DNA of 64,000 bases from Hirudinaria manillensis (taxonomy: Eukaryota > Annelida > Clitellata > Hirudinida > Hirudinidae), in contig CM067535.1 of the NCBI GenBank assembly GCA_034509925.1, positions 1,026,001 to 1,090,000 on the forward strand, in the 5' to 3' direction. Shown one piece after another: positions 18,701 through 28,224 of the stretch (positions are counted from its first letter, which is position 1; each line of letters starts with the position of its first letter). The position numbers and the translations under genes were made by a program. Under the pieces are notes generated by a model that was not told the DNA's origin, made no database searches, and saw only the letters and a program-made list of their open reading frames with translations.

Positions 18701-21700
18701 TATTTAAATTGCATTTAAATTACATTTAAGTTCATTAAATCCAAAAATAGTTAAACTGATCATTAATCTGTTACAGTAAGTAGTTTCAAAATTTATTATA
18801 ATTTTTTTCTCTTCATAATTTATTATAATTATCTGAAATAAATCGTTTAATTAGATTAATAATATGGCTATTATTATTATTATTATATTATTATTATTAT
18901 TACAATTATTACAATTATCATTATTATAATCAGTAATCACGTGATGAATCATCCTCTCGAATGCCTCTCTTGTGGCAATGAAAGCAGAATGTCAAACCTT
19001 ATCATTGATTAATGATAATATTAATCATTAAACACTAGAAGTGCTTCATGGCATAATTATAACAATAATAATAATAATAAGTATTATTAATAATAATGGA
19101 TAATAATAATAATAAGTATTATTATTATTAAGTATTACTATTATTATTAAGTATTATTATTATTATTATTATTATATATAAAATTAAATATAAGTATTAT
19201 TATTATTATTAAATATAAAATTAAATATAAGTATTATTATTATTATAACTAACACATTTAATAGCTATTGTTTTAATCAATAAGTTTAAATATGTTTAAA
19301 TTCATGAGTAATGCAATTATAATAAAACTTTGAGCACAGTTTCCTACTCTTAATGATCTGAATCTGATCCTCAACTGGTAAATCGCTGAACCCGGGCACA
19401 GCTTTGGCTACCGCCATCAGTTTCCTGATGTTGTGCTCCACCAGAGGCACGAACTCCTCCAGCATTTCCTTCCTTCCGTCCACGTCTATTCCGGTCACGT
19501 GATAGAAGTTCAGGTATTCTTCGATTGGAATCGTCTTCAATGACCCGAACACTTTCCTTTCAATCACGTGTTCCTTCTGAGGACCAATCAGAAGTTGTCG
19601 TTAGGAGAACATCCGGGGTCGTTCGGTTCATTAGTTATTATTATTATTATTATTATTATTATTATTATTATTATTATTATTATTATTATTATTATTATTA
19701 TTATTATTATTATCATTATCATCATTATTATTATTATTATTATTATTATTATTATTATTATTATTATTATTATTATTATTATTATTATTATTATTATTAT
19801 TATTATTATTATTATTATTATTATTAAATTAATAACTTTTGAAAGTAATAAACCTGTCCCGTCCTCTGAAACTAGGGGCAAAGTCAAAAGAATTATAATT
19901 TCTAGCAAGCATAGAGAGATGTTTAACCATTTTAGATGAACATTTTTAGAAATTTCAATCAATTTTAATTGTTCAAAATTCTTTTAAAAACAAAAATAAA
20001 ATAAAATGATGGAAACGCTCGAAGGCAAAATGACCAAATGTTCTTCCTCTCTCTCAGGTATGTCAGGTACGCACTGCCTGGAGTAATACAGGTGAGTCCT
20101 TGAAATGGAGCGGATGATGTGGAACAGCTTGTCGTTGGAGACGTCGGCGGTTGGAAATATTTTCTTTTCCATGATCTGCCGGACTTCTTCCAGATCCTTT
20201 GACTTCTTCTCGTGCGTGTACCGGCCCGTCTTGATGGCTTCGTGAAGGATTAATTTAATTTAATTAGTTAAATATTAGAATTAACTATCGATTGTAATTA
20301 AATAAAAAGTCTTTACTTTTCTATTATTATTATTATTATTATTATTATTATTATTATTATTATTATTATTATTATTATTATTATTATTATTATTATTATT
20401 ATTATTATTATTATTATTATTATTATTATTATTATATTATTATTATTATTATTATTATTATTATTATTATTATTATTATTATTATTATTATTATTATTAT
20501 TATTATTATTATTATTATTATTATTATTATTATTATTATTATTATTATTATTATTATTATTATTATTATTATTATTATTATTATTATTATTATTATTATT
20601 AAATCAACCATTTTATATGAGAGTTTATTCCTGTCCAATTAACGATATTATTAAATTATTCGATAAAACCTTTGAGAATTTATTGCTTCGAAATGGATTT
20701 TTTTGAAGTGCTTTCGAGGCTGGCAATTAAAAATAGATTGAAACTGATGCAATTTAAACGTGAATTGCAAACAATTCCATAACAATTCAATAATTTAATT
20801 CAGCTGAAAACCTTGACAATATGGCGGTACTAACTAGCTTTTAGGTGTTTAATATTAATAATATTGATAATTAATAATAATAATATTATTATTATTATTA
20901 TTATATTATATTATTATATTATAATTAGACAAAATATATTATAATTAAACATTTCTCAAGAAATTTAACTTATTATTATTATAAGTTTAATTTATTATTG
21001 CCGGAAATCTTATTTACCGATTTATTATTATTTTAAAAAACAACGGCTTTTATTATTTTATTCACATGAGAGATTAATATAAATTATTAATTTCATTAGA
21101 TGTAAATATTATTATATTATAATAATTACAAATTATTTATAATATTTATTTACTGCCATTGTTATTATTATTATTATTATTGCTGTGTTAATATCATAAT
21201 CCCATCGAGCTCTGAAAGTGTTCAGAACATATTTTACGAGCATTTTATACTGCTCATTCAAGAAATTATTGTGATTAATTGCGTTTATTTCTTTTAATAA
21301 TATCCTTATTATCTCCCCTCCTATAATTTCAGATTATGAAATTAAATTATCCTTTGATAATAACAAGTTTCTTGTTCATTATCTACTTGAGACTAACCGA
21401 GAAAATCTCGTAATAATAATACTATTAATAATAAAAATGATACTAATAATAATAATAATATTATTATTATAAATATTTTGATATTTAATATTTTACATGA
21501 TATCATAATTATTAATTATTTCATTTTGTAATAAACTATGAAAAGCCATTCGACCACCAACCTTCTTTGGACATTCCGATTGAAGTGCACTTTTTGTACC
21601 TGCAGTAACTGCACTGACCTCTCGTGGCAGCTGAAATCTGACAGTTTCCATCGCTGTTGCATCTATATGTGGTCGTTCTGCGAAGGCTCCTCCTGAAAAA

Positions 21701-27000: not shown

Positions 27001-28224
27001 TTAATACGTAAAATCTTACCAGAACTGTTGCGCCTTTTCCTAGACGGAGTTTCCTTCTTGGCCTGCAATAATTATCATAATAAATTACAAAATTAATGTA
27101 TGTAGTTCTAAGAAAAAATTGCAAGTCTTTGCCACAACCAACCTTTGCGATGTCGAGATGAATATAGCGGCACTTCTTTCCATAGGAGCAAAAACCCATG
27201 GCTTTAAAACTTTTGCAAATGTCCCTTTCACGAATCTTGCTCTTGTCATGGCTATAGAGACAATCGGACCCCTGGTGAATTTTATTTTATAAATCAGCAA
27301 ATGGACAATAAAGATCATTCCAAAATATTCCTCATTAACGATTCTGACCTTCATACAGTTTCCATCCAAGAAAAACTTGCAGGTTATTTTTGATTTTTTA
27401 TCTGAATGATGTCTGCCAGGGAACTTGATGGACTAAAATAAAACAGTCAGATAAAACAATCAAAAACTGTACAGTGCCAAGTACTACCATACTAAAAAAT
27501 AAACACAAAATTTCGAAGAGCATTCGAACCAACCTCATCTCCATCTTCATGTCGCTTCCTAATAAATAAATAAGTAAACAATGAGTACCTGAAGGTCAGA
27601 TAATATAAAGAGAATATTTTACCTTGGCTTTTTATCTTCCATCCTGTCCTCATCATCGCCAGATGGAGAGTCTGAATTGCATGACCCGTAAACATCACCT
27701 GTTAATCTTTTTCTGATCTCTTCTAATTCCTGATGGTAAGTATCACTTTCCATGCCATCGTCTTCCCCTTCGTCCAAATCCGTATAAAACATATCTCTCC
27801 AATCTGTTGATTTGACTTCAGATGCATATTTCTTCTTGTCATTAAATTCTGATACCTGGTAAATGCCAACCAAAATTATATTTACTTTGATCTTTTATGA
27901 AACCTTTTTCCCTTCAAAAACACACCTTTTCTTTGCTCCGAGAAGACTTTTTGCTTGATTTAATACCATTACTTGATTTATCTTTGTCTTTATAATCATC
28001 TTCTTCAGATTTTGTGTCAACCTTGGAACTTTCAATCCCACTACAATCTGATTTTCCTGAAGAAGTTAAAGATGAGCATGGTAAAGAAATGAATCCTAAA
28101 GGTAATAATAAATTAGTTCAATGGCCAAACAACCTAATGCAGACTCTGTCTCGACTTCACAACCATCATCCTCAATCTCCCCCTCTTCTAACTCAACCTC
28201 TGGGTCTGTTTGTGGATTGGTCAT
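24014..28224 (-). CDS. CCCH zinc-finger protein, ZC3H4/Suppressor-of-sable type
   Basis: The 1074-aa nuclear RNA-binding protein comes from twelve coding exons: 28134-28224, 27926-28095, 27623-27855, 27534-27558, 27349-27432, 27143-27271, 27020-27062, 26742-26886, 26406-26599, 25212-26335, 25036-25070, 24014-24965. All phases join. The acidic N-terminus has ELEEGEIEDDG, typical of the ZC3H4/6/8 family. Two C-x8-C-x5-C-x3-H fingers follow (Cys191, 199, 205, His209; Cys220, 229, 235, His239). Fly Su(s) also has two, vertebrate ZC3H4 three. A charged region, a long Pro/Asn/Gly/Met-rich segment (exon 10) and a C-terminal part with TRDPRL and DPR motifs complete it. Family members restrict unproductive or noncoding transcription together with WDR82; that role is inferred by homology. 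The ATG is the first in the exon and follows a 5' UTR acceptor (TTCTAG at 28243-28248). Three donors are AG|GTTGGT. The intron at 28096-28133 is only 38 nt. Confidence 0.93.

Follow-up and report, generated by a model that had tools for sequence, protein, structure and literature searches.

In the copepod Eurytemora affinis, 5' splice sites (donors) beginning with GA or GG make up 10–12% of those in the genes examined, and the sole intact gene for the U1 small nuclear RNA (snRNA) is ordinary (PMC5714493). The present study concerns the donors and U1 genes of the leech Hirudinaria manillensis, starting from a stretch of 64,000 nucleotides (GenBank assembly GCA_034509925.1, contig CM067535.1, positions 1,026,001–1,090,000, forward strand), which is referred to as the window and whose own numbering is used for the genes within it. 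As in the copepod, many genes have introns that depart from the animal donor consensus in a lineage-specific way; however, the departure of Eurytemora lies at position +2 and accompanies an ordinary U1 5' end, whereas that of the leech lies at +3 and altered U1 genes are present (PMC5714493). The planarian U1C variants are comparable in that there are several U1 genes, some of which carry the C-to-U change seen in the leech genes with U at position 9 (U9; ATACTTACTTGG); this planarian change faces donor position −1, and the extracts available describe neither a change facing +3 nor a matching donor shift (PMC6312358). Human variant U1 genes likewise form a multigene family in which variants stand beside canonical copies, but human donors keep the purine at +3 (PMC3877593) and, as far as the extracts go, the variants are not tied to a matching donor class (PMC13172311). 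A change of preference at one donor position across a clade is also known from the Saccharomycotina, in which +4A was switched to +4U; that switch is linked to the loss of METTL16 and SNRNP27K, whereas in the leech the position is +3 and a METTL16-family domain is present (PMC11732430).

Engineered U1 changes serve to rescue mutant donors (PMC10572768). In the open-licence literature searched, which lacks most subscription journals, neither a U1 with A at position 6 (A6) nor a +3U consensus was found reported for animals, nor was any animal found in which the 5' end of U1 has coevolved in nature with a shifted donor consensus. If the interpretation given below is true, leeches would allow tests of how a near-universal recognition code can drift while the organism survives. 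Many leech exons would be misplaced by programs for gene prediction or spliced alignment in which GTR, i.e. GTA or GTG, is rewarded (PMC12766944).

Donor position +3 in seven leech genes

Three genes in the window and four outside it yielded a pooled sample of 53 donors whose positions are set by frame or homology. The base at +3 is T in 20, A in 14, G in 13 and C in six of them, and the commonest hexamers are GTTGGT (six), GTGAGT (five) and GTTAGT (four). At +4 the bases are A in 31, G in 13, T in five and C in four donors, and +5G, +6T and −1G are found in 34, 32 and 38 donors, respectively. Among 216 human introns, GTT and GTC each account for 2.3% (PMC3877593). With 2.3% taken as five introns, the difference in +3T is large (20/53 in the leech versus 5/216 in human; Fisher p = 7e-12), also when only the donors outside the window are compared (13/35 versus 5/216; p = 4e-9), and the shares inside (7/18) and outside the window agree; the Fisher tests and the background tests given below treat the donors as independent, although they are drawn from seven genes.

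The lineage-specific donor shift in unrelated genes is real, and it is broader than claimed in the preliminary description of the window. The shifted 5' splice-site consensus proposed there is supported by the recurrence of +3T in independent genes beyond the window. The recurrent GTTGGT on which that proposal centred is confirmed as the commonest hexamer, but it is not a single motif that recurs; rather, the purine at +3 has been lost generally, and T is the base most often found there. Propagation of one intron as the source of +3T was discounted in that description and appears unlikely here as well, as the host genes are unrelated and, by eye, the introns have nothing in common beyond the donor.

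It is hardly credible that the junctions were misplaced and that the real donors are ordinary. The window junctions were indeed placed by eye from the sequence, and the control in which donors were forbidden covered the four outside genes. In these, a spliced aligner with no donor preference other than GT lost score in all four cases when GTY donors (GTT and GTC) were banned: from 734 to 496 for AFG1L (a loss of 238), from 1550 to 1225 for TM9SF1 (325), from 761 to 496 for WRAP73 (265) and from 10969 to 10508 for PRP8 (461). Restriction to GTT and GTC, applied to three genes, also lowered the score (to 398 for AFG1L, 1265 for TM9SF1 and 743 for WRAP73). Since the scores drop under either restriction, both GTR and GTY donors are needed. 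Moreover, the PRP8 junctions sit between residues that directly match the human protein.

The outside genes lie on other chromosomes and contributed 35 donors, with T in 13, G in ten, A in eight and C in four at +3. In the spliceosomal PRP8 gene on chromosome C3, located through its PROCN domain, the guide spans ten introns (GTTGAG, GTAAGC, GTAAGT, GTGAGA, GTGATT, GTTGGT, GTGAGT, GTTGTT, GTTAGT and GTGAGC), four of which have +3T, and an automatic spliced-alignment model returned the same ten donors. The AFG1L-like gene, which adjoins PRP8, provided nine donors, the exons upstream of the start of the guide having been excluded before counting, and WRAP73 on C9 provided three, a fourth intron having been excluded beforehand as its alignment crosses a stop. 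TM9SF1 on C11 has 13 introns, six of them with +3T (spliced-alignment score 1550); a 12-intron model with a score of 591, obtained at this locus with TM9SF3 as the guide, was superseded by the TM9SF1 model. In five nuclear-receptor genes, including that of the window, the intron at one shared position starts with GTAAGT, GTTGGT, GTGAGT, GTGGGT and GTCAGT, as retrieved by a pattern that demanded this intron position together with +5G and +6T.

Within the window, 22 donors had previously been reconstructed in three genes; 18 were rebuilt here as fixed by frame or homology, and they include the same seven with +3T, all seven hexamers being found in place and on the expected strand. The 18 donors (T in seven, A in six, G in three and C in two at +3) belong to a nuclear receptor with a zf-C4 match in a profile search (five), a CCCH zinc-finger gene that we take to be ZC3H4/6-like (11) and what is presumably, judging from its sequence, a discoidin-domain gene (two). 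In the nuclear receptor (minus strand; a slash marks the junction), AAG/GTTGGT at 23177–23182, with the zf-C4 match upstream of it, falls in the DNA-binding domain after CEACK and before GFFRR, its place being fixed by the P-box residues that flank it (next exon from 21703), and AAG/GTTGGT at 21556–21561 follows GMSKE in phase 1, so that G joined to CC gives the expected A of GMSKEAIKTGR (next exon from 20237). The remaining donors of this gene are AGA/GTAGGA in the ligand domain (19342–19347), AAG/GTGATG (18064–18069) and AAG/GTACTT (17417–17422), the last being placed on the donor side only; the exon-3 donor was left out of the count because its position could not be fixed. The exon end CGTGAAGATATGGAGAAGG of the same gene (window ~18110–17840, minus strand) has two more copies inside the following intron, and a GTTGGA-type sequence comes after each of these.

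The donors of the CCCH gene (minus strand) begin with TAG/GTTGTT (28128–28133), which is fixed by frame and is ambiguous in its pairing with two possible acceptors, and continue with AAG/GTGTGT (27920–27925), AAG/GTAAAA (27617–27622) and GAG/GTTGGT (27528–27533; phase 0 on both sides, next exon from 27432). AAG/GTCAGA (27343–27348), with +3C, lies within the first CCCH finger, the C-x7-C-x5-C-x3-H spacing of which fixes its position, and AAG/GTTGGT (27137–27142; next exon from 27062) lies past the second finger. These are followed by CTG/GTAAGA (27014–27019), ACA/GTCAGT (26742–26747; +3C, with a phase-2 option compatible with the acceptor), ATT/GTAAGC (26400–26405), GAG/GTTGGT (25206–25211), from which the frame continues via a 35-base exon (next exon from 25070), and TGA/GTAAGT (25030–25035). 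The discoidin-domain gene (plus strand) has CAG/GTTCGT at 58508–58513 (phase 0, GNGQ/GQEF; next exon from 61173) and GAG/GTGAGT at 61263–61268, of which the donor side only was placed.

A6 genes in the U1 family

In the standard duplex, position 6 of U1 lies opposite donor position +3 and position 9 lies opposite −1. The genome searched (148,429,096 bases in 23 contigs) contains a large U1 family: all 42 candidates scored, from 2171 first-look candidates, were above the Rfam cut-off, and 20 stretches around the matches yielded 206 full-length copies. The 5' ends are of few kinds, namely AAACTTACC, ATACTTACC, ATACTAACC (A6), ATACTTACT (U9), one double-changed form and array forms. A genome-wide exact pattern identified seven A6 genes (ACTAAC) outside a satellite array on C11; they are located on C5, C8 and C9 and start with ATACTAACC or ATACTAACT, and their A6 is complementary to a U at donor position +3. 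Reversed control patterns for A6 and for the canonical T at this position (T6) gave zero matches genome-wide. The dispersed U1 genes outside arrays number at least 28, comprising seven A6 genes, 20 T6 genes and C9:6894642, the 5' end of which was missed by the exact pattern. The start ATAC is found in all seven A6 genes versus 4/21 of the other dispersed genes, and each of four mixed clusters (C5:3.60 Mb, C8:0.61 Mb, C8:1.17 Mb and C9:6.89 Mb) pairs A6 with canonical genes. A U1 carrying ACCAAC would be a perfect fit for GTTGGT. It was found neither in the 100 matches listed, out of 160, to a pattern that permits it, which fixes U1 positions 3, 4, 7, 8 and 10 and is blind to variation there, nor among the 206 full-length copies, which came from surveys that left these positions free but needed overall U1 likeness.

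Six of the seven A6 genes look intact: positions 3–5, 7 and 8 are invariant, and the loop of stem-loop I, the ATTGCAC loop of stem-loop II and an Sm-like site are present. A double compensatory change is seen in 11 of 46 predicted pairs among these six genes, some of which may predate A6. In a tree built from 32 U1 sequences after removal of their first 20 bases, eight of them A6 rows (the seven genes plus one copy from the C11 array), A6 is scattered; at least four changes are forced by well-supported branches, and the clustering of A6 is no stronger than with shuffled labels. Either A6 arose repeatedly or the bodies were homogenized by local gene conversion, which left the 5' ends distinct. 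Selection on the U1 5' end would be compatible with both histories and is proved by neither.

An ACACC-like sequence, a candidate for the snRNA promoter element expected about 60 bases upstream, can be made out by eye, unscored, ahead of many A6 and canonical U1 genes and also of U6 genes; it is altered at C8:613812 (CCACC) and at C8:614897, 1175693 and 1177714 (CTACC or GCACC). The A6 gene at C9:6896667 carries a TATATAAG box at −30 to −23, a location that matches that in U6 genes, so RNA polymerase III might transcribe this U1. C8:561–599 kb is occupied by an array in which at least 60 U1 genes, nearly identical to one another, follow in tandem with a spacing of mostly ~610 bases; in the part that was read (560.5–590.5 kb), many units include a U1-like element that has AAACTAACC and lacks stem-loop I. 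The satellite at C11:5.43–5.54 Mb consists of degenerate U1 copies (TAACTTACC or TAACTAACC), of which 134 are full-length and many are 316 bases apart; in the copies displayed, stem-loop II is without its conserved ATTGCAC loop.

The preliminary description had suspected a peculiarity of U1 or U6. At the level of sequence this holds for U1, with A6 genes on three chromosomes plus a satellite array on a fourth, but not for U6: the search, in which 47 of 13108 candidates were scored, found no altered U6, and all three U6 genes that it returned carry the normal ACAGAGA, so a U6 origin of the donor shift lacks support. Two further candidate causes likewise lack support. Loss of METTL16 is opposed by a METTL16-family domain (PF05971) on C7, although this domain also matches bacteria and is not specific to METTL16, and loss of LUC7 is opposed by exon-level matches to that family in the genome.

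A possible second U1 form or a relaxed donor position

We tentatively favour, with confidence just under even, the reading that the purine preference at +3 has been lost, with T becoming the commonest base, and that a second U1 form supports the shift at the stage where donors are first recognized. Directly evident from the sequence are the donors and the U1 genes with their complementarity and intact structure; that the A6 U1 would be expressed and would act at +3U donors is inferred. Canonical U1 (ACUUACC) pairs with GUA and GUG donors, and the A6 form (AUACUAACC) would turn the mismatch at +3 of GUU donors back into a pair; its pairing would be perfect with GUUAGU and would include one wobble, at +4, with GUUGGU. 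With two U1 forms, GUR and GUU introns would both be selectable early, and the unchanged U6 would take over afterwards. In the leech, the reader of the splicing code may have changed along with the code itself. The mean number of Watson–Crick pairs of the +3T donors would rise from 5.65 to 6.65 with the A6 U1, a gain that follows by construction.

Several observations weigh against a role of the second U1 form. The composition at +3 is indistinguishable from that of 25 intron interiors (p = 0.35), from which +4 (p = 1e-5) and +5 (p = 4e-20) depart; the purine rule at +3 has thus been lost while the remaining donor is recognizable, and relaxed selection alone could suffice for this. In comparisons of several donor positions, with nominal p values, +4G is found in 10/20 of the +3T donors versus 3/33 of the others (p = 0.002), whereas the A6 U1 would favour +4A; a purine at +4 is present in 17/20 and 27/33, respectively. 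The exon ends in AG at −2 and −1 in 15/20 of the +3T donors versus 12/33 of the others (p = 0.01), and A at −2 is found in 17/20 versus 16/33 (p = 0.009); a better exon end is expected if canonical U1 reads +3T across the mismatch, which argues in part against the favoured reading. The +3C donors (6/53) pair with neither the canonical nor the A6 U1. By matched patterns, T6 genes outnumber A6 genes by 80 to seven, with 60 of the 80 in the single C8 array. In addition, A6 occurs in 6/134 full-length copies of the C11 satellite, resembling drift, and the seventh A6 gene, C8:614897, is truncated.

Much of this is what would be seen if +3 were simply unconstrained in leeches, with canonical U1 tolerating the mismatch through other positions, chiefly the exon end, and with the A6 genes as tolerated variants without a special role, an explanation that we regard as a serious one, although its probability is somewhat below even. 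The match of +3 alone to the intron background, the enrichment of A and AG at the exon end and the dominance of T6 in copy number all suit it. It also agrees with the coexistence of GA and GG donors with an ordinary U1 in Eurytemora (PMC5714493) and with the major 5' splice sites of Helobdella, which are slightly more degenerate than those of human; this degeneracy fits a leech-wide trait, and the passage available gives no figure for +3 (PMC10639083). However, the intron side of the +3T donors pairs worse with canonical U1 (+4A in 7/20 versus 24/33; p = 0.01), and the consensus matches summed over the six other positions are not significantly higher for +3T donors (3.65 versus 3.24; p = 0.12). 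The occurrence of A6 in several lineages and in six intact genes, always together with T at position 2 outside the C11 array, is also left unexplained.

The association of +3T with +4G and with exon-end AG could alternatively indicate that GTT donors are read mainly through the exon end, by U5, or by U6 after a weak contact with U1, without a special U1. Human donors are split into AG/GUNNN (U5-type) and NN/GURAG (U6-type) classes (PMC11732430), which would provide a parallel. We consider this improbable for the leech, in which the U6 genes found are ordinary and +5G is equally common in the +3T donors and in the rest (13/20 and 21/33).

Still less probable is the explanation that the A6 and U9 genes are stage- or tissue-specific regulatory variants and that the shift at +3 is independent of them. 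Variants of both planarian and human U1 offer precedents, those of planarians with C changed to U opposite −1 being enriched in stem cells (PMC6312358) and those of human being active in stem cells (PMC13172311). On the other hand, +3T occurs in the housekeeping gene PRP8, and its reader should therefore act in all cells, a point that is silent on the role of the A6 U1.

The reading with a second U1 form could be extended to a divided U1 system, in which T6 genes would read GUR donors, A6 genes would read GUU donors and U9 genes would read donors with A at −1. Local gene conversion would then keep the bodies alike, selection would keep the 5' ends apart in every cluster, and intron starts and U1 ends would have coevolved. 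This extension is speculative and we consider it less likely than not.

Other features of the window and genome

On the plus strand of the window, positions 9576–12122 hold an open frame of 849 residues, which by eye resembles an amine G-protein-coupled receptor and is apparently intronless. Elsewhere in the genome, a hirudin-family exon was found with 33.9 bits (cut-off 25) and one TAG inside, in agreement with membership of the Hirudinida. A dynein heavy-chain copy at C11:8446474–8447451 has an uninterrupted AAA_6 domain within an open frame of 3303 residues, whereas several other matches are broken into many exons; the C11 copy is perhaps a retrocopy.

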